Below are positions 21,585 to 59,172 of a stretch of 64,000 bases of DNA, piece by piece; position 1 is the stretch's first letter, and every line of letters starts with the position of its first letter. This DNA is from Candidatus Omnitrophota bacterium (lineage in GTDB: Bacteria > Omnitrophota > Omnitrophia > Omnitrophales > JACROU01): assembly GCA_029261035.1 (NCBI GenBank), contig JAJDCD010000005.1, positions 95,677 through 159,676 of the forward strand, written 5' to 3'. The notes under the pieces were generated by a model that had not been told where the DNA came from, searched no databases, and saw nothing but the letters and a program-made list of their open reading frames with translations. Made by a program: the position numbers and the translations under genes.

Positions 21585-21586
21585 TT

Positions 21587-22429: not shown

Positions 22430-22449
22430 ATAAAAGACGGGTAAATACA

Positions 22450-25718: not shown

Positions 25719-28700
25719 ATGACGTTAAAGTCTTTTCAAAAATCTCAGATTTTTGTTCGTTCTATAAGTATGCTAGTTCTGTCTGTCTTTTTGTTAGACT
25801 CTACGGTACAGGCCAGTCAGCTTAGTGTTCTTTCTCAGCAAGCTCCTTTAATTGTTGCTCCCAAGTATTTAAAATTACCTAATATTATTCCATCAGCAGA
25901 AGTAGCTCAGGTGGACGATTACTTCCTAAATGATTTATCTCACAAACCTATTCTTTATTTAATTCAAGATGCTCATGAGAGCTTAGACGCTCAGAAAAAT
26001 ATATATCAACTTTTAAAAATGTTAGTTCAAGAACGCGGAGTAAAAAAGGTTTATTTTGAGGGGGGAGCTACAGAATTAGATAAATCTTTTTATCAGTTTT
26101 CCAATAAGCCAAAGTTAAATCAAGATGTCTGGGAAGCCTTATTTGAATCAGGAGAGATGAATGGTGTTGAGTTTTACTCTACACAAGCGCCTGAGTATGT
26201 TCGTTTTTTAGGTGTTGAAGATGAATCATTGTATTTTGAAAATGTTTATGCCTTGAAAAAGGTATTTGATCTTCAAGATTTAACAAAAGAAAGATTAAAT
26301 GAGGTAGAGCGGAAAATAGAGAATCTTAAGGGGGTTCATTTAACCGGAGACTTGAAAAAAGTTTGGGATCTTCAGCAAAGCTTCGATAAAAAGCATATTG
26401 ATTTATTTCAGTATGCAAACGAAGTGAGTCGTTGGACTGAGAAAGAGTTGCGTCTGGATATGTCTCAGGTTAGAAATCAGGATGCATGGCCTCAGTTGGT
26501 TCGTTTACAGCAAATCCGTATTTTAGAACAAGGAATACAACAATCTCAAAAGGCCTTGCGCGTAGAGCTTCAATTGATTCAAGAAAGAAATAGAGGGGAA
26601 GTATTCCAACCATTTTCATTTTTATGGAACCCACAACAGCATGCTTTAGCTCAAGGGCATTTGAGATGGTATTTTGAAAAGTGTCTAGATCTCTTGAAAA
26701 AAAATAATCAATCTTTTAGTAAAGATTATCCACACCTAGAAAGCTGGATTGGTTTTCATATACTTAAAGATGAAATAAAAGCTTCAGATTTATTTAACGA
26801 GATTCAAGTATTGACGAATAAAGTTATTGAAAATATAGAAGTTTCCAATAACAGCAAATCTTTTTTGAGTTGGCTTCAGAAATGGAATTTATTTCAGAAA
26901 TTAATCTTGGTTAAACTAAATAAAGAAGAGTGGCTTCAGATTTTAAATCAAGAAGAAGCGTATGACCCTGTTAAACTATTAAATAATCCAGAATACTTCC
27001 AAGAACCTATTGAGAGTCTGGATATACTTCATCAACTTTATCAAGAATCCCTTCAGAATTACCATTGTGTTACCCAAAGAGATCAGACTCTTTTTAATAA
27101 GATGATTCAAGACATTACTGCAAGTCCATCAGATTCCGTTTTGGTCATGGGAGGTTTTCATTCAGACGCCGTAAAAGCCTTGTTGAAACAAGAAAGGCAA
27201 AGCTTTGTTGTTTTTAATCCTGGAATTAAAGACTTGTCTCATACATTAGATTACAAATCCTTAATGACAAGAAACTCTATAAGTTCAATGAAGGAAGTTT
27301 CCCGAGATCAGGTAGCGGTTCCTTATGAAGCGGCATTTGGTGCAGATTCAAAAAATATCATTCCTTACCAAGAAGCTGTTCGTCAGCAAGCTCAGATTGC
27401 CTTGGCCGCAAGTTTAGGAAAAGTGAAGCATGGTGATGAGCCCTGGTTATCCGCTTTTGTTGCCATTGAATCCTTGATTGATGAGAATGATGTGATTTTT
27501 AGACTTGTATTTGAAGACGAATTTACAACGGAATTCCTCAAAGAAACATTAAGAAATATTTCAGACTCTTCACAAAGAAGGCTTCAAATTGATTCTGCTC
27601 ATTTACTCAAAACATTTCTTATAACTACTTATGAAGAAAACCATGATATCCTTGCCCCCAATTTCAGAGAATGGCTAGAGGAATTCAAAGGTTTGGCGAA
27701 TGAACTTTATTCTAGAATTATGGAAATTTCAGATGCAGAGAATATTGCGGGCTTCTTAGAGAAAGGGCTCTTAAGTCAATATGACTCTAAGGGCACAACG
27801 ACTGATATTGCAAAATTTAATGGGATTATGGATTTGGCAGGTATTGTTCAGGGAATGAATTCTCCTGTTAGAGATATTTATTCAGCAAGTCGTATAACAA
27901 ATTTACTTTCTCCAGAAGTTCTTTTCTCTCATTCTGTAGTTCAAGGTCTGGATTTTGTTCAAGATGGAGAAGAGGTTGTAATCTATCATGAAGAAATTGA
28001 TGATGAAGACGGAAATATTTTATTTTTTATTTTTATTATTGATCAAACAATAGAACAAGGGGATGTTAAATCTACCCAAAGACGTGATTTCTTAATGAGC
28101 ACCGTAACGGGTGATGTAATTCCTCTTGCTGTGGGGCACGAGGATATTTTCTGGACAGAAGAAGATCAGTTACTACATGTCTTATATCCTCCGAATTTGG
28201 AAATTACTTATGACGTATTTTTGAAGCTGGATGATGGTGGGTTCGAGCCATTAAAGGCGCCTTATACAGCAAATAGTTTGGGGGCTTCAGCAGAGGATGG
28301 ATCTGATCTTTCAAAGCAAGAGCGACTTAAACTACGACGTAATACTTTAAAATCTGTTTTAGACGATTTGATTGAGGATAAGACCTTTGTTACTTCATGG
28401 GGATTAGTTGGTGTTTTAGTGGAAAGAATTCTGGAGAAAGAACCTCGTTTAGCACAATTTGTGAATCGAAAACTTATTACAAATGACTTAAAGAAACCTG
28501 GAATTAAAGATAAATATACTAATTTAAGGAAGTTAATTAACAAAAGAAAGGAGTCTTTGTCTGTTGCTGATATATCCTTAAAGACCAATACCATTACAGA
28601 TGTGCGAAGAGCCTTGATGAAGCAGATTCTTTCCGAAATTGAAGCATCAAATGCTGGGTTAGCAGTAGGAGATCAAGTTAAGTTAACCTCTCATCAACTC

Positions 28701-31700: not shown

Positions 31701-34700
31701 ATTGATTACAGACAAATTGCTAGCTCTGGTAAGGCAAGGGTGCTACGCATTATGACAAAGGTTTTGGACTATTCAGAACGTTCTCTAACTTATAGAGATC
31801 TTCAAGCAATTCTTAAAGAAAAATTCAGTATTTATTTGGTACCAGCGTATCTTTATAACATCATTACAGAGAAAAATTCATTATCTTATTCTATTGTGAA
31901 CCATCCAAAATATACTTTCCTTTCAGTGGGTCAACAAGAAGAAACTCACAAAGACGAAGTCTTTCAAGGGTTTTTAGGTCGCAGGGTGTATGAAGCCCTT
32001 TTCGTTACCAATACACGAATTACTACAATTGCTGATATCAGGGAATTGATTAAGCGAGGATATGTCGTTGGAGAAAGGTCGGATGAAGAAGTAGATCAAG
32101 CAATTAAGAATTATATTAATCAATCTATTTTGTTTAGGAATGGACAAGGCCAATTTATAGGCCATTCGAACTTACTCGTTGATCTTGATTTTGTTGAACC
32201 AACTCGCCCTGGATATGATCAAACCATAACAGAGGCCGAAGTGGATCTGAGATTTGTGAATGAAGAGGTTGTTGAAGTAGTTACACAGGGACCTTCTGAA
32301 GTTAGAAAGATAAAACAAGCAGAAAAAACTAAGCTTGTTGTAGCTGGTATTTTGGCCATACTGAATGAGGTAGCGGAAGAACAAAAGTATAAGCATGCTG
32401 TAGAAAAAAGATTACTTAATGCTAATGATATTGCCGCTCTTTTAAAAGAACGTTCCCCTGAGCTTTTGCCATCTACGCGAACCCGAAATAATGAAATTTT
32501 TCATTATATTTATTCAAATGAGTCTCTTTATCATCATCCAATGTATGTTAGGCCTTTGAGATCTGGAGAAATTCTAACTGCGGCAGTATCTATTTTAGAG
32601 AAAAGTGAAAAAAAATTAGGCTCTTTTGATTTGTGGTTGGAATTAAGAGATTCTCCAGCTCTTCAAAATATTTCTTTTCGGGACTTTAAAAGAGCTATGA
32701 AAAACAGGGATGATCAATTTGATTTGTTTGAAAATTTCAAACCTTTAAGTGAGTCAGATGAATTAGAAAATGCTTTGCTTTTTATGGATGAATTGACTGC
32801 AAATAAAGATTTTTTAGAAATAAAAGGAATGTTAAGAAACTTCTTTGATATTGACGCTACACCGGAGTCGATAGTTCGACTGTTAGGGCAAGGTATTGAA
32901 ATAGATATTGATAACGCATTGAAACAAAGATATTTTGAGGACTTTATTTCTTTTCAAGTAGGTGGCGGGTATGGGTTAACTTTTGTCGGGGTTTTGAAAG
33001 CTTTGGAAGAAAGTTATGGTTGGGAATTGAGAGAAGAAGAATTGATCAACGTTATTCAAACAAGTTCTAATTTAAGTGTATATAAATATTTCTCGCCACG
33101 ACTGATTGTTGCTATAGAAGCTAAAAGAATACTAGATAGGTCGGATAGAAAGATTACTATTGAAGAAATTCATCAACGGATGAAAGAGCGACTTCCTGAT
33201 GTCAAAAGTATTCATAATGATAATGCTTTAAGCCTTTTAGACTTTATGATGGAAAGAGACCTTGTTGGTTTATATCACCACCCAAAATTTAAGTCGAAGG
33301 ATTCTGTAACTATAGAGAAACTGTGGGAAGAATTTAACCAATTAAATATTTCAGAAATTACAGGAAGTGATTCTGTAAGCATATCCAAGACAAATAAGGA
33401 TAGAGTTTTGATTGTTACATCTTATAGTCCAAAGCAAGTAAGACAACGTACTATTTTAGAGGAGTTAGATATTAAATACAACCAGCCTATTCCTGAAAAT
33501 GCTTGGACTGGATTAAGAAGAGATATGACGGCGGCAGAAGTATTGAGTGCTATAAAAGAAAAATTTGGAGTTGTTGTTTCCCCCGCAGAATTTAGAAGAA
33601 TAGCTCTTAGAAAATCTGGTAGTACATCTGACCTGTTAGCGCATACGCGTTATATGGGTTACATCAACGAAAGAAGGTTAAGGATTAAACAGGTTTTAGA
33701 CAGGAAAAAAGTAACTCGATTTAGGCTTATGCCTAGTGATATTGCGAGAGAAATTTTAGATGAGTTTCAGATATCTGCAACTACAACAGATATTATGAAG
33801 GATTTGATTGTTATTGATGGTGGATCTTATATTCATCATCCAAATTTTCTACATCAGAGAGAAGTAGTTCAAGCCAAGAAAGATGCTGTAAGAGAGTTGT
33901 TGATAGAAATAGCCAATGGAAGAGATGCTGTAGATGTTAAATTTAGTACTCTTATACCAAAGCTGAAAAATCTATATGGTTTTGAGGTGGCTCTTCGAAG
34001 TTTGGAAAAGATTTTTAGAGATAGTAAAAATTACTATGATTTTAGAATTAGTCGTCAACAAGGAGATATGACGGCTCATATTCAAAAGTTTAAAACTGAT
34101 GAGCCTCAAGCGCAACCAACGAAGCCGACTGTTGAAAGAGCGGAAGCATCTAGTTTGGGTGCAGCAATTAACCGAGATGATGTAATTCGTTTTGAAGAAA
34201 GTTACGATGTGACTTTGGAAAGTGTTTTAGATATTATTTCGGCAACACGGGAAGTATTGGGGCCTGATTTAAGAGACTACTTTCCTTATATTTACAAACA
34301 AATGTTAGCAGCACTTGAAAAAGAATCTGAGGTGCAAGTGCCTGCTTTGGTTGTTGCAGGGGAGGTAAGTCCTGAAGCGGTGCTGGTGCAAGTTAAATCA
34401 AATACAACGTTTGTTATTTACTATCAAGACGAAAGTTATCCAGAGCAAATTGCTGTTGTAGCAGAAGAATTGATTCAATCAGGATTGATTGCCAGAGAAG
34501 ATATAGATTCTCATATTCATTTGGTTTCTTTAAGTGATTTAGGTATTACAGAGCTTGAATTTTATGAACAATTATTTGATGGAGAAAAACTAACAGGTAA
34601 GAACCTTGCGCGCATTGCAAATGACGCGGGTATTTACAAATTAAGAGAGCATACAGTATGGTTAGATTCCTCAGAGCGCATTCAAACTGTGATGGAAGAT

Positions 34701-34955: not shown

Positions 34956-35470
34956 CGACAAAATACGCAGGTTCGTCATGCGCTACAAATAGGCGTGTCC
35001 GGCAAACGTCAGCATCTATCTTTTTTTAATAATAGATTACCACAGCAAAAAAGTTTCTTATTTAAAGTCTATTTCCACTCATTTGGGTCCGGGCCCGAAC
35101 GACTAAGGAAATTCTGTCATCTTTGAGCCTAAGCGAAGGATGACAAGATTTTTTCCAAACAGGCCCGGGCCTCTTTTTTTCGAAAAAAGTAGGCCCGGGC
35201 CTGTTTACGTATTTACGGTTAGGTAAAAAAGGGCATATTTGACTTAAATTGTTTATTTATATCTATTTAAATTTCAGAATCTTAAAATTCCTTCATTTTT
35301 TTCGATTTTCCTCATAATTAGTACTTGAAATATAAAGTCTATAGGGTAGAATTACGTCTAAATTATCCTTTGTTAAAGTATTAAAAAAATATAATTTTTC
35401 TCAAAGGTTCTCACATTAGCTTAAAGGAGTAAGCGAATATAATACGACAACAAAGAAAGGGACCGCTCCC
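34956..35470. other. Intergenic region between giants 1 and 2
   Basis: A 515-base gap without a convincing gene. It holds a GTCATC...GATGAC hairpin with a T-run (about 35115-35154, possible terminator), GGGTCCGGGCCCGAAC near 35085-35100, the 50-base palindrome at 35157-35206, and an AT-rich stretch to the ribosome site of giant 2. TCAAAGGTT...ATTAGCT at about 35401-35422 recurs in the leader of giant 3. Confidence 0.6.
35157..35206. repeat. GC-rich palindrome upstream of giant gene 2
   Basis: AAACAGGCCCGGGCCT and AGGCCCGGGCCTGTTT are perfect inverted arms around CTTTTTTTCGAAAAAAG, which is itself nearly palindromic. Each arm contains GGCCCGGGCC, a palindrome on its own. A near-identical copy lies at 41282-41333, so the pair brackets giant gene 2. 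It may be a bidirectional terminator. Confidence 0.75.
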
Positions 35471-41194: not shown

Positions 41195-41213
41195 TCTCGA
41201 TTTCGTTCAAAAT

Positions 41214-41245
41214 GGGCCAGGTCCTTCGGGAGCCTGGCCTTTTTT
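41214..41245 (+). terminator. Intrinsic terminator after giant 2
   Basis: GGCCAGG pairs with CCTGGCC around TCCTTCGGGAG, followed by TTTTTTT. It sits 20 bases after the stop codon. Confidence 0.9.
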
Positions 41246-41281
41246 GTCTCCACCTCATTCCACATCATCCCTTTTATCCTC

Positions 41282-41333
41282 AAAACAGGCCCGGGCCTCT
41301 TTTTTGCGAAAAAAGCAGGCCCGGGCCTGTTTT
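41282..41333. repeat. GC-rich palindrome downstream of giant gene 2
   Basis: AAAACAGGCCCGGGCCT and AGGCCCGGGCCTGTTTT are perfect arms around CTTTTTTGCGAAAAAAGC. It differs from the 35157-35206 copy at only a few central bases. The rest of the 314-base gap (41195-41508) holds the terminator, this palindrome, TCAAAGGTT...ATTAGCT (41371-41391) and a TATAAT box at 41410-41415, which may belong to the promoter of giant 3. Confidence 0.75.
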
Positions 41334-41508
41334 AAGAATTTTGAGAAAAAACTCTGTAACTTGTTTATTTTCAAAGGTTTAAAAATTAGCTCTTTAGTTG
41401 CAATTCTTTTATAATAGGGTACACTTCTACCTTATTCTTAGGTAATTCCTTTGTTGTAACTTTAGGTTCTGGAGACTTAAATCAAGGGAGTTCTATACCC
41501 TGAATAAA

Positions 41509-47500: not shown

Positions 47501-50500
47501 TGGTCCAAGAAGAGGAACGGTGGGAGGGGGCTTTTCATGGAAATTTACATCCAGCAAATGTGAGTGTGGATCCTGATTATTTTCTAAATATTCATGATTT
47601 AACCCATGCATACAACAAAGAAGAAGTAAGTTCATTGAAAGAGCAATTTGCAAGACAGTTACTTGATTTTGATGCTGCTTTATCGAGAACTCTAGAAGAT
47701 AAAGTTTTCATGGACTCGCAGTTACAAGACTTTCATGTAAGGAAAGGGTTGCCTGTTTCTTGGAAGGGTATGGAGTATGTGAAAACTTTTCTTCTTGGCT
47801 ATTTTTATGATTTTCCACCAGAAGTTATTGAAAAAGTGGCTAGAACCATGGTTATGGAGATAGAGGGACACCCCATAACTCGCACCAACAATATTATACA
47901 AAAACTAGGAGTGACTCGACTTCCTGCTTATCAACATCCAGACTTTATTTTCGATCTGATGCGGTATGTTGTTGGAATTAAAAAAGATGGAACACCTCTT
48001 TTAGAAGAAGAAAAAGAATCTGCTAAGAAAGAAATAGAACAAAAAATTCTTGCCTCCAGTTTAGGTCGTACTAAAGATCATTTTAATATGACCTTCGAAG
48101 GACATGCTTTTAATATTTTAGATGAAATGAAGAAGGGCAATTTTAGTATGAAGTGGATTTTGAATTTTAAACCAGAACCGCTTACTAGGATACAGGTGCC
48201 GGATAAAAGTGTTTATGTGAGTCGAAAAACCGTTTTAGAAGCAGCAAAAAGAAAAAGATTTGGCTTACCTTTAAGTGCTAAACGGTTAGAACAGTTACTG
48301 AAAGCAGGTGCAATTAAGCAGAATGAGAAAGGGGAGTTGAGTCGTTATGATGCTGAGTCTTTTATAAATGCTTATAGTTTGAGAGAAACGGCTGAGCTTA
48401 CAGGTCTAAATAGAGATCGATTGTCAGGCTTATCAGGCAGTAAAGACCGTATGGTTGTTGTGCAGGGAAACTATTATGTTTTCCATGATTGGATTGAAGA
48501 AATGCGGGCACGGCATCATCGCCTTGTGCCTGTTTCTCTTTTATCTGAAATGCTGAACCTAACCCATTCAACATTTCTGTCTAATCTCCGGAATCCCAAA
48601 AAATTCTTACGTCCTCATCTATTAAGGCAGTTATTCGATGATAGAAAAAATCTGTTAGAGTCTCGATTTACAGGAGAAGAGTACCACTATTTTGGAGATC
48701 ATTCTCCAACGTTGTCTGTGGATATTTTAACGGCATGGAGTATCTTTCAATTACTTCAAAGGGTTCCTAATATGGAAACGGCCAGTACGGTGGATGAATT
48801 ATCTAAAAAACTTTATGTTAATAGAGTTTTTGTGTCAAAAGCTATCGAAGAAGATCGGGTTGAAGCTACTTTGGTTAGGGGTATGCGCAAAGGAGGTCCT
48901 GTTTATTTAATTGATGAAGAGGAGGTAAGGCGCATAGAAAAAGAATTTAACCAAAAATTAAAATTATTAATAAAGGAAGTTAAAGCTTATGTTGATTCAA
49001 AGGTCCCTTTAAAAACATGGGAAGATATTCAAGAAGTTGTCAAAAATTGGGATACAACAGAAACATTAAAAGAACGATGGAATTTTAAAAGTATTAGTGG
49101 TATTCATGAAATGATGAGAAGGGAAGTTTTGAAGGGTGTTAATGTTGTAAACCCCTTATCCACAGTAGGTGTGAATTATTTTCCTCCACAGGAAGTTGAG
49201 AAATTAGATAAAAGAGATAGAAATAAGCTTGATGAAATCTTGGAATTTATTAACAGATATAGAGGGTCTCCCATTACAACTCGTGCTGAGATTGATGCAG
49301 CTGTAAGTAAATGGAGCACTCCTACTTATTTATCTAAAGTGACTGGAATACCAAGGCAAACAATGACCCGAAGAGTAAAGAAGGGTGCTGTCAAAGGTGT
49401 TCTGTTAGATCTTATTGGTTTTAAAAAGAAATTCATGGTTCCTCCTTCTGAAGCCCAAAAATTTATTCAAGCAAACTCAAAAATAAGTAAAGCCTCAAGT
49501 TTAGGAAGATCTAAAGATCATTTTGATGCCACAGTCCTAGGAGAAGAAGTGAATTTGCTTGATGCCATGAAAGAGGGCGCGTTTAAAGTCCAATGGTTTT
49601 TTAGTTTTAAGACTAAGAAGCTTCCTCGAGTTGAAATTCCAAAAAAACAAAAATATCTTACTAAAAAAGAAGTGTTACAGTTAGTATCTCAAGTAAAAGG
49701 AAAAAGAAGAATTGGTCCTTTGCGTTTGAATCAATTAATTGAGAAAGAATATATCAAAAGAGATTCTAATGGAAACTTAAATCGAGAGGATGTGTTGTTT
49801 TTTCTAAATGCATTTTCATTAAATGAAGCGGCAGCATTCATTGGGGTAAACCCAGACAGGCTCGGTAAAATTGCCTTAGAAAATGGATCGGTGAAATATG
49901 GTAAAGAGTATTTTGTTCCATATCAATGGGTTGAGCTATTAAGAGCCAATTTTCACGATCTTGTTCCTATTCGAATTTTAGCAGAAATGTTAGATATGGA
50001 ATTTTGGAACCTGGTAAATAAATTAAGAAGCCCTTCAAATTATTTTTCCGAAGATATTATAAAAGAGTTTTTCCCTTATCAAGAGACTTTAATTGATAAA
50101 AGAATTACAGGAGAAGAGTATCACTTTATCAATGGTAACAATGTTTTGGCTGTTGATTTGGCTACGGCATGGATGCTGTTTGTCATATTTAGAATGTTTC
50201 CAAATCCCAAGAAAGCGGCCACATTGACTTCGTTGGCTAATAAACTTTCTGTGAACAAAACATTGGTATCTACAGCGGTGAAGGAAGGTCGAATTAAAGC
50301 GACTCTCGTTTCTGTCTTAAAAAAGGGAGTTCCGTCCTACTTGGTTGATGAAGAAGAGTTTGACAGAGTTATTAAGGAATACAGTAAGAAGCTGAAAGAC
50401 CTTAAAGCTTTGTTAGTTCCATATCTGCGAGGTAAACAACTGAAGACGTGGCAAGATATTCAGGAAGTGGTTCAAGGTTGGGATACTGCAGAATCTTTAA

Positions 50501-53500
50501 AAGAGAAATGGGGATTTAATCAGGTTGATAGAATCCACAGAATGGTGAAAAGGGGCCTATTAAAGGGAGTTCATGTTGTGAACCCTCTATCGGTACATGG
50601 GAAGTGGTACTTTCCACCTTCTGAAGTGGAAAAGGTAGATGTTGTAGATCGAGAAAAACTGCAAGAAGCTTTGGGTTTTGTTAATCGCTATAGAAAAAGG
50701 AAAATACGAACTCGAGAAGCGTTAATCAAATCTCTAAAGAGATGGAGTTCGCCAGTTAAGTTAAGTAAATCAACAGGAATCCCTCGTCAGACCATGACGC
50801 GCTTGGTGAGAGATGGGTATGTGGAACATGTAAAGCTAGATATATTAGGACAACGGTCTCGTTATGTTATTCCTCCAGAAGCTGCTAAGAGATTTATAGA
50901 CGAGTTGAATGAAAAAATTATTACCTTTTCAGATAAACACTTATCTCCTTATGGTCAAGGTGCTAGAACATATAAACAACTAAAAAAATTGCTTAATAGA
51001 TGGTATACGATTTCTGAATTAAGTAAAACAACAGGAATTAACCAAGAAGAAATTGCCTGGAAAGTTGAAATCGGTGAATTAAACTCTGTCAATTTTGATT
51101 TCACTCCTCTTCAAGGGAGGATATACATCCCACCTCAAGAAGCAGAGAAATTAATTCAATCTTCAAGCGTGTCTGCTAATAGTTTAGGTGTTGCAAAAGA
51201 GCACTTTGATATTTTTGTTAATGGGAAGAAAGTAAATTTGATTGATGCGATGGTTGATGGGTCATTTCGTCCAGAATGGATAAGTCGTTTTGTCCCTAAA
51301 TCTTTACATGAAGTAAGCTTAAAAAATGTTGCTCCATCGATTACTTTTGAAAGAGCTGAAGAGTTATCAAAAAGATTGGGGCAAAGAGTTATTACTGTTT
51401 ACATGCTTTCCGAATTACAAGAGGCGGGTATTATAAGTAAAGAGTTTGAAGGAATGATTTCAAAAGAAGATCTTCAGTTTTTAATTAATTCCAGAAAATT
51501 GGGGGAAGCGGCACGGCTTGTAGAGCTTAATGAGGCTGATGTGTGGATGTTTGCTTCCAAACATGGAGCAAAAAGGTTGCGTAGAGAGTATTTCGTTCCT
51601 TTGGAGTGGATAGAAGAAGTTATGCTTAGAAAGCACCATTTGATTCCAGTTCAGTTATTAGTTGATGAGTTGGGTGTGAACTATGCATCTTTTGTGGATC
51701 GTTTAAAGAACCCAAGAAAGCATTTCTCCAAAATTATAGCTGAGGGCTATTTGGAAGGGAGAGACTCATTGCTAGAACCTTCTCTTAGAGGCAGTCTTGT
51801 TCATGGAAATTATCAAAATTTTATGATTGATTTGTCCCTAGCGTGGAAAGTAGTTCGATTAATTAAGGAAAAATCACTGTCCGACGGATACATCACTTCG
51901 GATGTGTTAGCAGAAAGAATAGGCGTTGATGTTAATGTCATTCTTTTAGGGATTAGAAATGAACTGATCAAGGTTAAAGAGATTTCTGATATTGCTGGTA
52001 GTGGCAAGTACCATTATGCCATTTCTGAGGATGAAGCAGAAAGAATAGAAAAATTATTTAGTGCTCAGTTGGCTGTATATCAACAGACTTTGGAAGAAAG
52101 TGGTTTTATAAAAAGAAAGTTAAACGGATGGAAAGATTTAAAGAAATTTATTCAGTCATGGCTTGGAACGGAACAGTTGAGACAGCGTTGGGGTTTTACG
52201 GGAAATCAAGCAATTATGCAGATGTACCAAAGAGGGAGTGTTTGGGGATTAGAACTAGCACATCCACTGTCAAGAACAGCAAAAGTCTTATTTCCATTGA
52301 AGGAAATTAGGAGCATTGAGAGAAAGGAAAAAATCAAATTCGAACTTATTGCTAAATTTATTTCTGAACATGTTGGAGTAGAGGTGAATGAAAAAGCAGA
52401 AATGTCAGATGTTTTTGAAGATTGGTATACCGTAAATGATTTACTGAAAGCCACAGGCTATAGTCGGAAAAAGGTTATGAGACAAATAAATAACGGGAAT
52501 ATCCCCTCAATCAAAATAGATCTACTAGCTATGCAAAGCCGTATTGTAATTCCACCCACTGTAGCTCAGCTGTGGATTGGACAACAACAAAAACCACCTT
52601 CGACAGCCTCCAGCTTAGGTAGAACAACAGAAGATTTTAATATTACTGTGAATGGAACTCCTGTGAATTTACTGGATGCGATGATGGAAGGAACATTTCA
52701 AATATCTTATTTACTGCAACTATATCAACCTATGAAAAGACAAGGTCATGCTCCTAAGAAAGCTTACTACTCCATTGATGAAGTGCTTGAAATCTTTAAA
52801 GAGAAGGGCAGAGGCCCTATAAGGAAGTTACATATAAATGAGTTTGTGACAATGAAAAGAAGAAAAAAAGAGGATAAGAGAATTAGGCATGAAGAGCTTC
52901 TCTGGTTGCTGAATACGGTACCTTTAAAAGAAGTTACCAAGTCTTTAGTTGGTCAACATTCGGATTTAAGAGAAAGGGCATTAGAGGGCGGTGCTGTTTT
53001 AGTTAAAGATAGAATGTTTGTTCCTGTTGCATGGCTTTCCCAACAGCAAGAAAAACAGGCTAATTTGGTTTCTGTGGGTTTATTAGCGAAAGTTATGGGT
53101 GTTTATCGCACTAAGCTATTTAAGTATATATTGGATCCACAAGGGATGTTTGGAGAGGCTATTTTTAATCAATATTTTCAAGACAAAGAATCGTTGTTGG
53201 AATTGTCTCAAAACGGAACAGTTTTTCATGGAACACAAAAGGCACGAATGATTACACTAGAGACAGCTTGGGCAATTGTAAGAATTTATAAAATCTCATT
53301 AGAGAGAGCGAAAGGCTCTATTGGTATTGTAGCGTTAGGCGAAGAGTTGGGTAGAGATCGTTACTTTGTTGACAAAATTATTAGAAGAGGAGAAATAGAT
53401 GCTTCGTTTATTCCTTTAGTAAGTGACGGCAAATATAAAGACAGAATAGTAGCTTCAGAACTTGAAAGAATTAGGGCTTTATACCGTAGATCATTAGCAA

Positions 53501-56500
53501 GTTATTCAGATGTACTTAAAAAATATGGGGTTGGTCCATTTAAAACATGGAGTGAGCTAGAAGAGTTTTTTGAATCATGGTATACCGCTGATGATGTAAG
53601 GCGTAGATTTGGTTTTAAAATCAAACGAAGTGTTTATGATATGTCTGAACGTGGAGTCTTGACCGGTATTCATGTAGCATCCCCTCTGATGCCACAAGGC
53701 CAAATTCGTTTTTTTCCAGTAGAAGTTGATAATCTTTTTAATAAAGACTTAGAGAGAGTTAATGAGATTTTGGTATTTATTAATCGCTTCAGAAAGCGTC
53801 CTATAGGAAATAAATCTCAAATACAAAGAGCAATTCGCGATTGGTATAAACTGCCTCAGTTAGAAAAAAAATGGGCTGTCTCAGATGGAACTTTGTTAGA
53901 TTCAATTAACAAAGGGAGCTTAGAAGCTATTAATATTGGCTTGATAGGAATGAAAGAACAAGGCTACTGGGTTCCAAGGCAAGAAGTACAGCGAATTGAA
54001 AAAGAACAGAAAAAAAGAAGAGAAGAGATTCTGAAATTTGTTTCTCAATATACAGATGAATCGATTAATACTACAAAACAACTTAAAAAAGCAACTCGTA
54101 AATGGTTCGCTGTTGAAGGAGCTGCAAAGAGGTTGGGGGTAAAGAAATCTCTGATAAAAAGTATGATTAAACGAAAAACCATTAGAAGTGTGAAGATGGA
54201 TTTGCTTGGTTATGGAGGGGGTAATACGTTGATGATGATCCCTCCTCAAGAGATAGGAAGAATCGAAAGGGAAGAAAAAGAAAAGTTAGATAGAATTATA
54301 GCTGATATTTCTCAATTTACTGAGAAACCTTTAATGACAGTAGAAGATGTTTTGAGAGCAACTCAAAGTTGGGTTAAAGCAGAAGAGTTTGCTAAAGAAT
54401 TTGGTGTGAATACGGCCCATGTTTTAGCTTTAATTAGATCTAATAAAATTCGTGCAGTTGAAATGAATTTATTGAAAGTTCGTGGAAATAAAATGTTTTA
54501 TTTGATTCCTCTTTCTGAAGTGGAGCGTTTTAAATTAGATCAAAAAAATCAGCTTGCTGAAATTATTCCACAAGTACGTGAATATACGGATGCCGAGATT
54601 GACACTATTGAAGGTTTGAAAAAAGCAACATTAGATTGGAGCAGTACGGGGGACTTTTCAAGAGAGTTTGGTTTTCCTGCAGCATCAGTGACTCGTATGA
54701 TTAAGGCTAACAATATTAAGGCTATACGATTTGATTTGTTTGGATTTGGAGGAAAAAATAGATTGTATTTAATTCCCCCACAAGAAGTTGCCAGTATAAG
54801 GCAAGAACAAGAAAGGAGATTTAAAGAGGTTCAGAATTACTTGCTTCATAATTTTAATATCGAAATTATGACATTGACTGATTTAGAAGAAGTAACTCAA
54901 GATTGGTTAGGGAAGGAAGATGTTAGGAGAGCTTTAAAAATAAGTCAGGCAACATTTTATTCTCATGTGAAGGATAGAAAAGTTAAATCCGTATTTATTG
55001 ACTTGTTGGGCTACAAAAGAAGAGCTGGTTATTATGTGTCTCCATATGAAGTGGAAAGGTGGGGGGGAGAGAGTTTAGATGAAGGGGCTTCAAAAAGGAA
55101 AGGTGAAAATATAAAATTAAAAGCAAAAAAAATTAAATCTAAAGCTTCTAGTTTGGGTAGAGAGATAGCGCTTTTGGTTGCGGAAGAGTATCCTTATAAT
55201 CAGTTGGTGCTTATACTTGATCGTGTAGACAGTTCATCTGATTATGCTGAGTTTGAGATTCGTTCTAAGAAACAAAAAATTGGAGAAGGAAGTTTTTTTA
55301 AGGGAGATGATCATTGGAATTTAGTCCACTTTGAATTGGGTTCGGAGTATAACTACCAGGAGGAAGGTAAGGAGGTTATAAAGTGGTTTGCTCGATACCT
55401 TCAGAATATGTTTCCAGGGAGTAGAAACCCTTTAAGGTTTGGTTGGGTGTATAACCCTGAAATGTTGAGTTTGGCTCACTCTGTTTTTGAACCAGACTCC
55501 ATGGAAATAATTTTTAAAAAACCTGGACCGTGGTATTCCATGGCTGATCCTAGTTTTAACTTGTTTTACTCTGCAGGTCCTTTACGTATTTATGATGATG
55601 TCCCTCTTTCTACAAAAGAAATTAAAGTTATTAAACAAGGGAGTTTTTACGTTCCTGTGAGCTATCCTCAAGAGGTGAAAAATGTCGTAGTAAGCAAATA
55701 TCACGTATCAGCACGATATAAAAGTACAGGTAACTTATTGAGAAAGATTCAGTTTGAGAGACCCTTTTCTATTAAAGGAAAGATACGGAAATCTCTATTG
55801 TCTTCCGCACGTTCTCTAGGGGATGAGCAGGATGAGTATGGATTAACTCGAAAGCAAAAAGAAGCAGTGCATCATTTCTTGTTTCCTAAAGACTTATCAG
55901 GTGAAGCAATATTAAAACAGGTTTTGATGTTACTTATCCCATATATCCTTTTAGGGGGATTGGTGGCTGCTGTGATGAGTCGTGAGAAAAAGTCAGATAA
56001 TCAAGCGGTTCCTCAATCAACATCAGAAGGGAAAAGTTTAGGTGGGACACGGCCTTTGTCTGCGGTAGATTATTTTGCTCAACTGGAACAAGAGCTGTCT
56101 GAAGCTTGGCAAGCTTGGGATCATCAAAGCTCGATGATGGATATGGGTTTTGTCGAATCTGCTTTAGAGCAAAAAACAAATTATTACGCATTGATGGGTC
56201 TTATAGCAAATTCGTTTATGCATTTTTCAACTCCTACATCAAAATTAGAAGAAGATGACGTAGTTCTTTATATTGCGCCAAATCAAAATGGTAACACAGG
56301 TATTTACCGTGTTTTAAGTGTATCTGGAATGCAAGTTCAACTGATGAATGTAGCAAACAAAACAATTTTAGTAGCGGAGACGAAGAAAATAAGAAGGATT
56401 GATTTATCAAAACCTAGAATTATGTCTCAGGTTGAAGAAATGCTTACAGAGTCTAGCTCTGCGAACAAAGAAAGCATTCGTTTAACGGTTAAAGGAGAGT

Positions 56501-59172
56501 CTAAGAAGCTTTATACCTTTTCTAATTCTTACAATAATGGCCTGTTTGCTAGTGTGGTTGCTATGAGGGAGATGGATTTGGTTCCTGACCAAGCTCTTCA
56601 ATCTTTATTTAGAAGTCAGATGGAAGCGCAAGGCATTGATGCTGATTTAACCCAAGGAGAGTGGGTTTTGATTTTTGCGAATAAAAATCCAGATGAGCCT
56701 TTGGATTGGGGGCAGGTTCACCCAATAAGTATCAGGTGGATGAATCGTAATGGAAAGGGTCCTCATTCTTTTGATATTTCATTCTTGCGAAATATGCCAT
56801 TGGAAAAAGTGTTTGGAGACTTTACTTCTTACTCATACAAAATATCAGAACAGCTAGGGTTGAGAAATGTAAAAAATTTTGATGAAGGCTCTCGGTTAGG
56901 AACGATGGTGTATCAAAATTTTAATTATCAAGATTTTGTTCGTAGCATTTCTTTTGATTATCAATTATTTCCAGTAGAAGCAGCTAGTTTAGGTGGGATA
57001 GACGGGCATAGAGTTAGAAGCTTTATTATTAAAAAGGGCGAAGAGGAGGCTTTGCTCCTTTATTTAGAGGAACCTTTTTCTGAGAAAATTAATATGGAGT
57101 TAGCTCTTCAAATAATAATGGGACGTATATTATTTGAGGATGAAGAAATGAAGTTAAGTTATCAATACCTTGCGAGGGATTATAGAGTTTCAGAACAAGA
57201 GGTTCGGAATCTTGAAAATATTTTATATACGTATTTTTTAAATAGCATTTATTTTGGAGGTTTATTGAGACTTGTTAAAAACTCTAAGATGGATCAAGTT
57301 AAAGAGGCTCCTATACTGCATTTGAATATACCTCAACAGATGGTGAGAGTTTTAAGTTTGTTGATTTCTGATAAACAGGATGGCGAACAAGGGTTGCCGA
57401 CTATTGGGGCTTTATTAACAAGAGACCCTAATCGTATTAGAGATGTTTTTGAAAGGGAAGAGCTCAATTTTGATATCTTGATTAATAGATTGAAGCAGTT
57501 AGATTTGGAATTTCAGATGAAACTACAGTCAAAAGTTAGCGCTCAAAAGAAAAGAAAACCTAAACCAACCAAGATTCATAGAGAAGCACGTAAACAAGTG
57601 GCTCAGTTATTCTTAAAGCCAGAAGGTTATCGTTGGAGTGAGTCCAAGCGATCATTTGATGAGTTGGAAGGGCTTAATCTGGGGCCGTTGACAAAAAGAG
57701 GTATGCTTTATCTGAATCCAAGACCTAATTATAATTTGATCCTTTCTTTGTTGGATAAAGAAGAAGCGGGCTGGGAACTAAGTGTTGTTAGAAGTGAAGT
57801 TTTATCGAATAGGCTTATTTTGACTGTTCAGCTTAGTCATTCTGAGAGTGGTAAAATAATGATCAGAGACATTAGATTAGTTCCGAGCAAGAAAATGTTA
57901 AGAGGATTGGGCGCGGATAATAGAAAAGAATTTTGGATTTACTGGGGGATAGAAAGAGGGCCTGTTGCCATTGAGGTTCGTGGTTCTGCTAAGAATGCTC
58001 ATAATGTTAAAGCAACTTCAGGAAGAGAAGTGAAGTTAAATACTTTAACTCGGAACGAGTTATTAAGACAGTCAATTGAAATATTGGATTTAACAAGTTT
58101 ATCAGAAGTTCGATTAAGACAAGCTTGGCATAACCTTTCCAGCAATGATGTGAATGGTAAAAGTAAATTGTTAGAAATGAAGGTTGGAGATTTAGTCAAT
58201 TTGAAAAAAGATGATTTCCGCAGCGTTATCGGAGGGTATATTGCATTTAGACAAGCAAAAAGAAAACTGGAAAAATTAGGTCTGAGTTTAGCCGATAGTT
58301 TGGGGGCTTTGTTTAAAGATCAGTATGGAGTCTCAGAAGATATAGTTTTAAAAGTGGTAAAAATGACAGGGGATGTGATAGGACTTGATTTGAAAGTTTA
58401 TTTCCCTCATTTTTATAACGAGTTATTAAAGAAAATTCAGAATAAAGATATCAGTGCGGTGAACCGTTTGTTAGTTCAGTTGGGAGATGATCCTAAACTG
58501 AATGATTTGCTTAGCTATTTGGATCGAGGGCAAACACCTATTCTTGTAACTTCGGAATTATCTCCAAGAGCTTTGATTCTTCAATTGATGTCGGAGTCTG
58601 TGGTTATTGTTGATTACAAAGATGAAGCTTATAAACAACAATTTGACAGGCTCTTATCTGAAGCTATTCTTAAGCAAGGTTTAACGAAAGAAGAAACAAG
58701 GGCTATAAAAGATCGAGCTTATTTTATTCGTCGCTCTAAAGAGTCTAAAAGACAAGATATGTTAACTCAGCTATTTAAAGGAGAGAGGGTTTCAACCGAT
58801 AGAGGGTTGTTGAGCCTTTCTCGAATGGCGCATGATTTAGGTGTTGATGTTCGTGGGCTCCGTCGAAAAGTTGTCTGGATGGAGGACAATCAGATGATCG
58901 ATGAAATATTAGAACGGCTTATCGTGGGTTTTGGTTTGCCTATGGTTATCGATCCGGGGCGTGTACAGGATAATGAACAACGAGATTTTGTTGATACTCT
59001 TAGATTGTCGGTTGCATCTTGGCTGTCTCTAGATCCGGAATTCTTGGTTAAAAAAGGCTATGCTAGCTTTAAAGATGATCGTTTCGTTATTACAGAACAT
59101 TTCTTTGAGTCTTTCCTGAATGACCAATTGCTGAAAGAGAAAGTGAATCGATTGCTCGCCACTATGGCTTAG
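41509..59172 (+). CDS. Giant exported modular protein 3 (5887 aa), HTH-repeat rich, unknown function
   Basis: One intact frame of 17.7 kb. The start is uncertain: GTG 41509 lies 18 bases after AAGGGAG, an in-frame CTG at 41500 is better spaced, and ATG 41539 is possible. Residues about 24-42 are a signal or anchor segment (INLAFIFLLNTVVEA). Residues about 95-551 are the shared N-terminal domain (QDAHESLDAQ, His105; EGG; GGFH, His488). Twelve [AGY]-x-SLG motifs divide the rest. In order: GHKL-like (about 560-780), large module 1, kinase-like domain (about 1623-2181), modules 2-5, an unknown beta-rich domain (4551-4766), a membrane segment (about 4799-4823), two unknown domains (4846-5157, 5163-5594), and the C-terminal domain (5600-5887) shared with giant 1. 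No known function. Confidence 0.85.
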   Translation: MSFRKVFAYLMGFLLAQKYRCLVRFISINLAFIFLLNTVVEAAPLMQHVMTPSVLSQSAINSFSQPPYLPLSPIQINSQIGSVQESYLPVTKKDSPQVYLIQDAHESLDAQENIKNILEKLVLEEGVDTLLFEGGSLDFNSSIYQFSSDMEINHRMWKELFRQGHLSGVELFALNQSGSVRLKGIEDESIYFKNLKTILDTNRLYKKSQDEILRIDQQYTIKKQKTFSEPLRKLIKERDDFRKNKNNFNPYMLFLMKEAKKRINLDLSQAKYQKQYPQLVRYSKISQFEKKIKENRDEVEKQRIELLELTQNKVAKSLTKESFLFLFNPEQHYLARDQLRWYFESWCEWAQAENIDVQLYSHFINWMAYHILKNEMKGPQLFDELQTIEILLLKNLNLSEEERKLLAEEDGWNLWNKLVSLKLTREEYERLRDTNPKNDLKGLNLLTQKALENYEWVIKRDAVLSEKAIEAINLSKSSRVAVVTGGFHSYFLTQKLKEEKKSYVLIAPRISQLERSLNYKDRIQQLFSSTTALDIPGALLSDLSKQRLLVAARSLGIQGAKKKDLPRKSGAQREDEIFRTHISVPMPEIEQMLSFPGRIQPSMQNALNETIKLIVTLFEDALISVNRNEVENLKRFQKYPGGIFYNHLTDELRGAISNSLDSTLERYRREGISREFIHIVFRVYKDQESNYFIDVIDEGVGETAINKTNVKRYSGERYLGKRGVDRGKSLESQVMGVFDAQLFEREDAQGAVLEIKLSQRKVLNHFKESMEGLNLRRVSKYMDSYGQSLGRTKEAYNMRINGNQVNILDAMMEGEFKTTWLTSFKPEALPKLKLPDKKESYSLDEAFIVFRQLKGSRSLTKSAFSAWVKKVLSRRASSRISRELLSNLVNTFSLSEARTHLGGDMVTVREKAKKAGAISVEHRMFISRDWVDRQRIYRYQLVPVHLLAKVMGVSKKVLLSYLEEPKKRFGDYLWEEDLLKKKSLLEVSAEGTKYHMDGAGKALMVSLVTAYQVISIYRKSLRNKKESYSVDELAGLLGVTKNILAQAIKSGEIAVIHLPFLGPEPRISIVDSEGILNIFSKVVKNYSKVLRPYTKKKISSWRELMAVVSGWETTNSLKEKWGFKSHNGIHQMMSRGKIKGFHIVHPLTEQGVWYFPPEEVGRVDDLEEMKLAKVLKMVNKGSRAKIKTRSELEKVLHSYFSLEKLEKRWSVSNRSLKGMIQRGTLEAVRLDFIGEQKRGYLVSPKEVKRIEGLEQKKLKKIKRFVSKFSSQTIKTIGKLRKVTQNWIKPTTLDERLGIRGGTVRQAIDNGLIQAVRMDLIAFGGDKSAYLIPTAEIKRLEGKVKALARDISAFSKSKPKTIQDIKTATREWLRIEDLAKEFDVSFETIFALVRSGEITAFKLDLIGLGASKAPYVIPPEEVSRIREEQNEKKRKVLSFVEQYENVSSEDEITVMRLKDITSRWVKLRQFKTEFGVHLATAFNYVRQGKVNAVQMDLLGYGGKKAFYLIPPQEIERIRQEDKLKLTQIIDFVRTYISSKRRVKTWEDVQQVTNSWLKIEDLVKAASVKFATASRWVKTGKVKGIKIKLIGKNNTNGYYIIPPQEIDRVKKERMDRNNLASSLGQESTAVVDVLYQKYRFLLPKSVQKQFNYELVAGWYEVVSSDTTVLPMKIFDFIQKVYSLLSPNEVNQVAVLLADFQKEITEILTADESLEPSEEEKAPQEVELVKAVALQKLVEKRPLVDEIWEGDKKARISMDPVFWGVLHSDEKKEWLKKIKKILTRNYSSLKKGLDYEEPIGGGKKFRSLKLGLVDAPLVLSHGVKIHAMQLKGVVFDSGNITDVFNMHHAKREWGQKLPDAPVVQPIYHEDGTISYIPRQWSPKGGMVLDEAKREFEMHRYFMKSGMPVNYPLAYGEFLGEKEPLGRKIGFVLLGQRFQQNYRFHDVLNRILNARYVVPIQELSKEGKTPEEIESLFRETELELLANIQSHGHLLRTIHTPMVQEEERWEGAFHGNLHPANVSVDPDYFLNIHDLTHAYNKEEVSSLKEQFARQLLDFDAALSRTLEDKVFMDSQLQDFHVRKGLPVSWKGMEYVKTFLLGYFYDFPPEVIEKVARTMVMEIEGHPITRTNNIIQKLGVTRLPAYQHPDFIFDLMRYVVGIKKDGTPLLEEEKESAKKEIEQKILASSLGRTKDHFNMTFEGHAFNILDEMKKGNFSMKWILNFKPEPLTRIQVPDKSVYVSRKTVLEAAKRKRFGLPLSAKRLEQLLKAGAIKQNEKGELSRYDAESFINAYSLRETAELTGLNRDRLSGLSGSKDRMVVVQGNYYVFHDWIEEMRARHHRLVPVSLLSEMLNLTHSTFLSNLRNPKKFLRPHLLRQLFDDRKNLLESRFTGEEYHYFGDHSPTLSVDILTAWSIFQLLQRVPNMETASTVDELSKKLYVNRVFVSKAIEEDRVEATLVRGMRKGGPVYLIDEEEVRRIEKEFNQKLKLLIKEVKAYVDSKVPLKTWEDIQEVVKNWDTTETLKERWNFKSISGIHEMMRREVLKGVNVVNPLSTVGVNYFPPQEVEKLDKRDRNKLDEILEFINRYRGSPITTRAEIDAAVSKWSTPTYLSKVTGIPRQTMTRRVKKGAVKGVLLDLIGFKKKFMVPPSEAQKFIQANSKISKASSLGRSKDHFDATVLGEEVNLLDAMKEGAFKVQWFFSFKTKKLPRVEIPKKQKYLTKKEVLQLVSQVKGKRRIGPLRLNQLIEKEYIKRDSNGNLNREDVLFFLNAFSLNEAAAFIGVNPDRLGKIALENGSVKYGKEYFVPYQWVELLRANFHDLVPIRILAEMLDMEFWNLVNKLRSPSNYFSEDIIKEFFPYQETLIDKRITGEEYHFINGNNVLAVDLATAWMLFVIFRMFPNPKKAATLTSLANKLSVNKTLVSTAVKEGRIKATLVSVLKKGVPSYLVDEEEFDRVIKEYSKKLKDLKALLVPYLRGKQLKTWQDIQEVVQGWDTAESLKEKWGFNQVDRIHRMVKRGLLKGVHVVNPLSVHGKWYFPPSEVEKVDVVDREKLQEALGFVNRYRKRKIRTREALIKSLKRWSSPVKLSKSTGIPRQTMTRLVRDGYVEHVKLDILGQRSRYVIPPEAAKRFIDELNEKIITFSDKHLSPYGQGARTYKQLKKLLNRWYTISELSKTTGINQEEIAWKVEIGELNSVNFDFTPLQGRIYIPPQEAEKLIQSSSVSANSLGVAKEHFDIFVNGKKVNLIDAMVDGSFRPEWISRFVPKSLHEVSLKNVAPSITFERAEELSKRLGQRVITVYMLSELQEAGIISKEFEGMISKEDLQFLINSRKLGEAARLVELNEADVWMFASKHGAKRLRREYFVPLEWIEEVMLRKHHLIPVQLLVDELGVNYASFVDRLKNPRKHFSKIIAEGYLEGRDSLLEPSLRGSLVHGNYQNFMIDLSLAWKVVRLIKEKSLSDGYITSDVLAERIGVDVNVILLGIRNELIKVKEISDIAGSGKYHYAISEDEAERIEKLFSAQLAVYQQTLEESGFIKRKLNGWKDLKKFIQSWLGTEQLRQRWGFTGNQAIMQMYQRGSVWGLELAHPLSRTAKVLFPLKEIRSIERKEKIKFELIAKFISEHVGVEVNEKAEMSDVFEDWYTVNDLLKATGYSRKKVMRQINNGNIPSIKIDLLAMQSRIVIPPTVAQLWIGQQQKPPSTASSLGRTTEDFNITVNGTPVNLLDAMMEGTFQISYLLQLYQPMKRQGHAPKKAYYSIDEVLEIFKEKGRGPIRKLHINEFVTMKRRKKEDKRIRHEELLWLLNTVPLKEVTKSLVGQHSDLRERALEGGAVLVKDRMFVPVAWLSQQQEKQANLVSVGLLAKVMGVYRTKLFKYILDPQGMFGEAIFNQYFQDKESLLELSQNGTVFHGTQKARMITLETAWAIVRIYKISLERAKGSIGIVALGEELGRDRYFVDKIIRRGEIDASFIPLVSDGKYKDRIVASELERIRALYRRSLASYSDVLKKYGVGPFKTWSELEEFFESWYTADDVRRRFGFKIKRSVYDMSERGVLTGIHVASPLMPQGQIRFFPVEVDNLFNKDLERVNEILVFINRFRKRPIGNKSQIQRAIRDWYKLPQLEKKWAVSDGTLLDSINKGSLEAINIGLIGMKEQGYWVPRQEVQRIEKEQKKRREEILKFVSQYTDESINTTKQLKKATRKWFAVEGAAKRLGVKKSLIKSMIKRKTIRSVKMDLLGYGGGNTLMMIPPQEIGRIEREEKEKLDRIIADISQFTEKPLMTVEDVLRATQSWVKAEEFAKEFGVNTAHVLALIRSNKIRAVEMNLLKVRGNKMFYLIPLSEVERFKLDQKNQLAEIIPQVREYTDAEIDTIEGLKKATLDWSSTGDFSREFGFPAASVTRMIKANNIKAIRFDLFGFGGKNRLYLIPPQEVASIRQEQERRFKEVQNYLLHNFNIEIMTLTDLEEVTQDWLGKEDVRRALKISQATFYSHVKDRKVKSVFIDLLGYKRRAGYYVSPYEVERWGGESLDEGASKRKGENIKLKAKKIKSKASSLGREIALLVAEEYPYNQLVLILDRVDSSSDYAEFEIRSKKQKIGEGSFFKGDDHWNLVHFELGSEYNYQEEGKEVIKWFARYLQNMFPGSRNPLRFGWVYNPEMLSLAHSVFEPDSMEIIFKKPGPWYSMADPSFNLFYSAGPLRIYDDVPLSTKEIKVIKQGSFYVPVSYPQEVKNVVVSKYHVSARYKSTGNLLRKIQFERPFSIKGKIRKSLLSSARSLGDEQDEYGLTRKQKEAVHHFLFPKDLSGEAILKQVLMLLIPYILLGGLVAAVMSREKKSDNQAVPQSTSEGKSLGGTRPLSAVDYFAQLEQELSEAWQAWDHQSSMMDMGFVESALEQKTNYYALMGLIANSFMHFSTPTSKLEEDDVVLYIAPNQNGNTGIYRVLSVSGMQVQLMNVANKTILVAETKKIRRIDLSKPRIMSQVEEMLTESSSANKESIRLTVKGESKKLYTFSNSYNNGLFASVVAMREMDLVPDQALQSLFRSQMEAQGIDADLTQGEWVLIFANKNPDEPLDWGQVHPISIRWMNRNGKGPHSFDISFLRNMPLEKVFGDFTSYSYKISEQLGLRNVKNFDEGSRLGTMVYQNFNYQDFVRSISFDYQLFPVEAASLGGIDGHRVRSFIIKKGEEEALLLYLEEPFSEKINMELALQIIMGRILFEDEEMKLSYQYLARDYRVSEQEVRNLENILYTYFLNSIYFGGLLRLVKNSKMDQVKEAPILHLNIPQQMVRVLSLLISDKQDGEQGLPTIGALLTRDPNRIRDVFEREELNFDILINRLKQLDLEFQMKLQSKVSAQKKRKPKPTKIHREARKQVAQLFLKPEGYRWSESKRSFDELEGLNLGPLTKRGMLYLNPRPNYNLILSLLDKEEAGWELSVVRSEVLSNRLILTVQLSHSESGKIMIRDIRLVPSKKMLRGLGADNRKEFWIYWGIERGPVAIEVRGSAKNAHNVKATSGREVKLNTLTRNELLRQSIEILDLTSLSEVRLRQAWHNLSSNDVNGKSKLLEMKVGDLVNLKKDDFRSVIGGYIAFRQAKRKLEKLGLSLADSLGALFKDQYGVSEDIVLKVVKMTGDVIGLDLKVYFPHFYNELLKKIQNKDISAVNRLLVQLGDDPKLNDLLSYLDRGQTPILVTSELSPRALILQLMSESVVIVDYKDEAYKQQFDRLLSEAILKQGLTKEETRAIKDRAYFIRRSKESKRQDMLTQLFKGERVSTDRGLLSLSRMAHDLGVDVRGLRRKVVWMEDNQMIDEILERLIVGFGLPMVIDPGRVQDNEQRDFVDTLRLSVASWLSLDPEFLVKKGYASFKDDRFVITEHFFESFLNDQLLKEKVNRLLATMA
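43207..43860 (+). other. GHKL ATPase-like domain in giant 3 (tentative)
   Basis: Residues about 567-784. The order DELRGAISNSLDS (N-box-like), FIDVIDEGVGE (DxGxG-like G1), GKRGVDRGKSLESQVMGVF (G2-like) and GAVLEIKLSQRK (final strands, like GTxFxixLP) follows the Bergerat ATPase plan of histidine kinases and MutL/Hsp90. Several glycines are missing, so it may be degenerate. There is no His-phosphotransfer domain. Confidence 0.4.
43879..46359 (+). repeat. Giant 3 large module 1 (six C-terminal HTH units)
   Basis: Residues 791-1617. It opens with the module hallmark N-x-LDAMMEGEF...W...F-P-E and continues with SLSEARTHLGG, LVPVHLLAKVMGV, then T-AYQV and SVDELAGLLGVTKNILAQAIKSGEI. It ends with six roughly 80-residue units, each W-x(5)-L-x(5)-GV-x(3)-T-x(6)-G-x-I-x-AV-x-x-DLIG...YLIPPQEVxRI. 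That plan matches excisionase/MerR-type (HTH_17) winged helices. Confidence 0.7.
46375..48051 (+). other. Kinase-like (APH/ABC1-type) domain in giant 3
   Basis: Residues 1623-2181, between ASSLG motifs. FHGNLHPANVSVD (His2010-Asp2021) and NIHDLTHA (Asp2030) match the catalytic loop HGDLHPGN and the metal Asp of aminoglycoside-phosphotransferase/ABC1-like kinases. The catalytic Asp is replaced by Asn2012, so it may be a pseudokinase. The preceding LLRTIHTP and the REFEMHRYFMKSGMPVNYPLAYG stretch fit an N-lobe/linker in this fold. Confidence 0.5.
48067..49491 (+). repeat. Giant 3 large module 2 (two C-terminal HTH units)
   Basis: Residues 2187-2661, between ASSLG (2182-2186) and ASSLG (2662-2666). 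Opens RTKDHFNMTFEGHAFNILDEMKKG; contains TGEEYHYFGD, TAWSIFQLL and two W...GI-x(2)-QTMTRRV type units ending IPP/VPP-SEA. Confidence 0.7.
49507..51174 (+). repeat. Giant 3 large module 3 (three C-terminal HTH units)
   Basis: Residues 2667-3222. Opens RSKDHFDATVLGEEVNLLDAMKEG; TGEEYHFINGN and DLATAWMLF are shared with module 2. Modules 2 and 3 are the most alike pair, suggesting a recent duplication. Ends at ANSLG (3223-3227). Confidence 0.7.
51190..52605 (+). repeat. Giant 3 large module 4 (two C-terminal HTH units)
   Basis: Residues 3228-3699. Opens VAKEHFDIFVNGKKVNLIDAMVDG; ends at ASSLG (3700-3704). The most divergent of the five modules, but LIPVQLLVDELGV, DLSLAWKVVRLI and the closing IVIPPTVAQ are recognisable. 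Confidence 0.65.
52621..55143 (+). repeat. Giant 3 large module 5 (six C-terminal HTH units)
   Basis: Residues 3705-4545. Opens RTTEDFNITVNGTPVNLLDAMMEG, closest to module 1, and like module 1 carries six C-terminal units, so modules 1 and 5 probably share an ancestor. Ends at ASSLG (4546-4550). Confidence 0.7.

Follow-up and report, generated by a model that had tools for sequence, protein, structure and literature searches.

The 64,000-nt window analysed here (the whole stretch of contig JAJDCD010000005.1, positions 95,677 to 159,676, of the Candidatus Omnitrophota bacterium assembly GCA_029261035.1) contains three consecutive giant open reading frames of 3078, 1907 and 5887 codons. A first-pass annotation of the sequence had proposed that the three proteins are one family of cargo-carrying polyproteins rather than unrelated giants, with a signal peptide, a homologous N-terminal domain, an A-x-SLG motif at the end of that domain and again before a C-terminal domain, and only the middle differing. 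To determine if this is so, we re-examined the ORFs, their domains and their motifs. The features identified were as follows, with residue numbers in brackets.

25719..34955 (+), giant 1, 3078 aa, exported polyprotein-like
25719..25817 (+), giant 1 signal-peptide-like N-terminus (hydropathy heuristic)
25851..27308 (+), giant 1 N-domain, TIKI/Ere/ChaN-like (H86, E114, H481)
27405..27419 (+), separator AASLG (563)
28269..28283 (+), separator ANSLG (851)
34146..34160 (+), separator ASSLG (2810)
34149..34952 (+), giant 1 C-domain, ending IASMA-COOH, homologous to that of giant 3
35471..41194 (+), giant 2, 1907 aa
35603..36820 (+), giant 2 N-domain (H85, E113, H401)
36950..36964 (+), separator AASLG (494)
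37160..38980 (+), phosphoglucomutase/phosphomannomutase cargo (564-1170) with TASHNP, NDPDADR, GGEESYG and RPSGTEP intact
39077..39091 (+), separator AASLG (1203)
39770..40057 (+), UDPGP (UTP-sugar-1-P uridylyltransferase) hit within cargo 1204-1712
40604..40618 (+), separator ASSLG (1712)
40607..41191 (+), giant 2 C-domain, ending IIESAA-COOH, predicted Rossmann-like alpha/beta with a long terminal helix
41509..59172 (+), giant 3, 5887 aa
41701..43128 (+), giant 3 N-domain (H105, E133, H488)
43162..43176 (+), separator ARSLG (552)
43864..43878 (+), separator GQSLG (786)
46360..46374 (+), separator ASSLG (1618)
48052..48066 (+), separator ASSLG (2182), opening a repeated HTH module
49492..49506 (+), separator ASSLG (2662), opening a repeated HTH module
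51175..51189 (+), separator ANSLG (3223), opening a repeated HTH module
52606..52620 (+), separator ASSLG (3700), opening a repeated HTH module
55144..55158 (+), separator ASSLG (4546)
55807..55821 (+), separator ARSLG (4767)
56029..56043 (+), separator GKSLG (4841)
56980..56994 (+), separator AASLG (5158)
58291..58305 (+), separator ADSLG (5595)
58294..59169 (+), giant 3 C-domain, ending LLATMA-COOH

The QDAHxSLxAQ and GGFH histidines lie exactly where the first-pass annotation had placed them (86/481, 85/401 and 105/488), as do its A-x-SLG motifs. The N-domains are homologous by blastp (giants 1 and 3, 3e-82; giants 2 and 3, 3e-19; giants 1 and 2, 4e-16). The C-domains of giants 1 and 3 are also homologous (2e-42), while that of giant 2 shows no BLAST similarity to them. 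The giants hold 18 [AG]-x-SLG motifs, more than had been listed, whereas A-x-SLG alone is expected about 0.28 times in shuffled sequence. The proposed middle modules (helical repeats, metabolic enzymes and HTH modules) were confirmed in part: PGM and UDPGP were found in giant 2 and HTH_17 arrays in giant 3, but giant 1 has no Pfam hit. Five homologous modules of giant 3 each begin at a separator.

To examine how widespread the family is, a profile of the three N-domains was searched against the 2.70-Mb genome. About 45 N-domain genes were found, in open frames of 503 to 16,199 codons, and together they encode 139,549 aa, about 15.5% of the genome. Members of 16,198 aa and 8,065 aa fall within the size class of Omnitrophota giant ORFs (over 20 kb). 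All 45 begin with a signal-peptide-like segment by a hydropathy heuristic, compared to 3 of 16 other ORFs of the window. Two pieces at contig ends, L094 (end of C16) and L210 (end of C3), overlap in 47 identical residues and are probably one giant of about 3,856 aa split by the assembly. The N-domain was found in 54 of 58 related genomes, including a 24,618-aa open frame in the relative G001, part of which reads as N (G001:C1:54500-74300, L178). In a collection with named records, 43 of 44 were Omnitrophota. The idea of a single family is therefore far stronger than the three window genes alone indicated.

Across the family in this genome there are 161 A-x-SLG motifs against 4.1 expected, plus 48 G-x-SLG, giving 209 separators, while permuted tripeptides sit at background. 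Information is confined to [SVAIT]-E-[AG]-x-S-L-G-[AV], and nothing is conserved further out. We infer that the small residues at -3 and -1 before the presumed cut resemble signal-peptidase preferences. The motif is almost absent from the N-domain body (1 in 19,972 aa). It first appears a median 133 aa after GGFH and last appears a median 262 aa before the C-terminus, and its flanks are hydrophilic and linker-like. Dividing the chains at the motif gives 254 segments, most of ordinary protein size. Some giants, however, have few separators over long stretches: one member (L098) has 1 in 5516 aa, and the 16,198-aa protein (L085-L087, G000:C26:18700-67922, where G000 is this genome), whose N-domain groups with those of other lineages, has 8.

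Pfam searches identified complete, mostly cytoplasmic-type proteins between the separators. In one member (L061), isocitrate lyase with malate synthase is followed by GTP-PEPCK and then glutamate dehydrogenase, with KKCGH and the P-loop APSASGKTN intact. Other members carry PPDK, ARMT1-like, macro, NUDIX, histidine phosphatase, UDP-glucose/GDP-mannose dehydrogenases, five protein kinases, histidine kinases, exonuclease, WD40, LRR, TPR, HTH arrays and inositol monophosphatase, although many members remain without any annotated cargo. The cargo enzymes tested are divergent second copies. PEPCK exists as a standard 596-aa protein (541 bits) besides the cargo copy (303 bits), and PGM likewise. Isocitrate lyase is found in this genome only as cargo, apart from a 289-codon frame matching part of the family. 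Within the window, genes at 20208-23586 look by eye like a methylcitrate-cycle cluster, of which only the middle one has a hit (ICL family).

A feature not noticed in the first-pass annotation is the C-terminus. Of 43 complete members, 33 end in Ala-Ala (P about 1e-69 against the family's own AA-dipeptide frequency) and 41 end in Ala, whereas none of 27 ordinary ORFs of the window ends in AA. The consensus is roughly A-Q-R-x-[IV]-A-Q-A-A-COOH at the end of a long helix. Relatives also end in AA or SA, and this is the feature shared most widely across lineages. The C-domain is a divergent set whose relatedness across clusters is only partly shown by iterative search. It is predicted to be Rossmann-like at moderate confidence, and a fold search gave only generic Rossmann-like matches, none with E at or below 0.001.

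We next examined whether other genomes use the same separator. In other families the same architecture carries R-[SA]-E-[VLM]-R, for example 31 R.EVR against 0.42 expected in the Baikal genome, or GFGA, with 10 against 0.05 in the protein L114 and also [A]GFG in the relative G003. The first such motif again falls just after the N-domain in many genomes sampled. The two main kinds are mutually exclusive: this genome has 209 SLG and 0 R[SA]E[VLMAI]R in 139,549 aa, while the relative G021 has 2 and 82 in 54,159 aa. Shared cargo confirms the exchange, as PGM is flanked by SLG in the relative G002 and by RSExR in G011, and a UDP-sugar dehydrogenase begins 9 aa after RSExR in G021. Several families (f4, f6, f10 and f14) show no clear separator. 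One f4 genome (G014, L174) has 9 [AG]xSLG in a 5372-aa protein that also has long internal repeats, and these may be repeat-borne or an independent SLG lineage. The SLG motif is specific to this family of genomes. The same N-domain does occur in genomes with no SLG-linked modules, formally the outcome that the first-pass annotation had taken as refuting its reading (there, the N-domain found alone in such genomes), but it does so for a reason that supports the idea.

The separator follows the genome and not the gene tree. N-domain trees interleave SLG and RSExR members, and starred branches force at least 4-5 changes of label. Giant 2 and another member of this genome, L084, sit inside a 31-member set otherwise from non-SLG genomes, and L061 (SLG) pairs with L196 of G021 (RSE) with 96% support. 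These are quick trees with several long branches, so single joins are unsure, and it is the interleaving as a whole that matters. All copies in one genome carry that genome's separator, from which we infer a shared recognition factor acting in trans. This is supported by two SLG proteins with a signal peptide and a C-terminal AA that lack the N-domain, L214 (1373 aa; C26:134342 (+)) and L211 (612 aa; C18:333637 (-)), which also show that the N-domain is not obligatory. L211 is the minimal case, consisting of signal peptide, SLG, inositol monophosphatase, SLG and a C-domain ending in AA.

To investigate the nature of the N-domain, the giant 2 domain was modelled with AlphaFold2 (pLDDT 95). Its meaningful structural neighbours were ChaN (VIA Z 8.6), Bcr135-type (8.2), EreC (7.4) and HopBA1 (7.4), but many unrelated helical proteins scored Z 5-7, so these values alone would not settle the fold. 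The top two Foldseek hits were Ere-like with E of only 0.02-0.03, a BFVD search gave only weak hits with E above 0.001, and a search of the N-domain profile against PDB gave only chance hits. No window protein has a Pfam match above threshold in this domain. PF04187 (ChaN) was hit by 9 of 78 members (best 1.6e-5) and TIGR00261 (traB) by 2 (best 1.3e-6). The active-site residues H, E, R and GG.H are invariant in 49/49, with the first acidic position D/E in 45/49. The H-to-E spacing of 28 in the three window giants equals that of the TIKI endopeptidase RRSP (H3902/E3930) and of Bcr135 (H85/E113) (PMC6254334). The N-domain is probably an active hydrolase of the TIKI/TraB/Ere/ChaN superfamily, very divergent, with a large helical insert and used as the leader of the chains.

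Collectively, the most likely interpretation, although no cleavage has been observed and no protease identified, is that the giants are exported polyproteins. After Sec-type export the chain would be cut at the separators, here [SVAIT]-E-[AG]-x-S-L-G and in other families R-S-E-[VLM]-R or [SA]-G-F-G-A, by one protease shared by all polyproteins of the cell and acting in trans, releasing the individual cargo proteins. The C-terminal Ala-Ala may serve as the recognition tag for the intact chain. The inference on destination is weaker. Signal peptides, nucleotide-dependent enzymes, eukaryote-like domains and published signs of host dependence in Omnitrophota (PMC10066038) favour action outside the cell's own cytoplasm, most likely in a host or prey cell, but rest on no demonstrated secretion route, and an internal compartment or the organism's own envelope is not excluded. 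An ATP/ADP translocase homologue in this genome and in 28 of 58 relatives points the same way. The hit (PF03219; G000:C24:46342-47313) lies inside a 912-aa frame, longer than the usual carrier, as in many relatives. More tentatively, the organism may run a genome-scale polyprotein programme of about 50 exported chains, one sixth of its genome, delivering a parallel set of metabolic and signalling enzymes to another cell or compartment, with the whole five-residue code having switched in concert between lineages.

An alternative, which we consider unlikely, is that the TIKI-like N-domain is itself the separator protease and cuts its own chain or its siblings. The invariant active site, the fold neighbours and the fact that TIKI enzymes can be sequence-specific endopeptidases (PMC6254334) are consistent with this. 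However, since N-domains of SLG and RSExR genomes interleave in the trees, specificity would have had to switch in parallel in many copies. SLG proteins without any N-domain also exist, though these could be cut in trans by a sibling. One stand-alone N-domain is present (L079, 496 aa; G000:C16:405808-407157), with no separator and no AA end, and by reading a trypsin/HtrA-like protease gene lies convergently next to it. Of four candidate stand-alone N-domains from relatives, three (G029, G019 and G002) stop at contig ends and the fourth (G033) ends at masked bases, so no conserved trans-acting form was shown. Somewhat less likely still, the giants may stay intact, with the separator as a docking or binding motif (assembly, chaperone or translocon pausing signal) between modules of a long surface protein. 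A short linear motif in hydrophilic linkers would give the same sequence pattern, and published views treat giant Omnitrophota proteins as intact adhesins or coats (PMC10066038). Against this, the cargo is complete soluble enzymes that need no tethering, and a single-cargo protein still has both separators. A chance motif is rejected by the counts, and a DNA-level recombination seam is very unlikely: serine is AGT at 62% of sites against 24%, suggesting that most separators descend by copying during module duplication, but leucine and glycine codons are near background, the SLG triplet has 57 distinct DNA versions, and the exclusion of one motif by another and the concerted switch need protein-level selection.

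Giant genes in uncultured bacteria have had no accepted function, and whether such proteins are ever cut into smaller ones has been posed as an open question (PMC11573180; PMC12057145). Very long ORFs with few annotated domains and a suggested host-dependent lifestyle are known from Omnitrophota (Seymour et al. 2023, PMC10066038), where they are treated as poorly conserved, mostly adhesin- or coat-like intact proteins. None of the papers searched, which did not include bioRxiv preprints, describes shared separators, a concerted switch of separators or the C-terminal Ala-Ala. If the separators are cut sites, which is not shown, this would be, to our knowledge, the first genome-wide polyprotein strategy in a bacterium, and many giant 'adhesins' would really be packages of small proteins. 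MARTX toxins are also exported chains whose several effector modules are released by proteolysis, and one known module is a TIKI-family endopeptidase (PMC6254334). In the chains scanned here, which did not cover every residue of every member, no cysteine protease domain or RTX repeats were seen. There are dozens of loci per genome with metabolic cargo and uniform lineage-specific separators, and the TIKI domain is at the N-terminus of nearly all. Viral polyproteins likewise place many complete proteins in one ORF with a recurrent short site between them, whereas the present chains are cellular, come from many loci and carry signal peptides with enzyme and signalling cargo. Polymorphic toxins are long exported modular proteins with variable parts (PMC3482391). 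There the C-terminus varies, while here the N- and C-terminal parts are constant and the middle varies.
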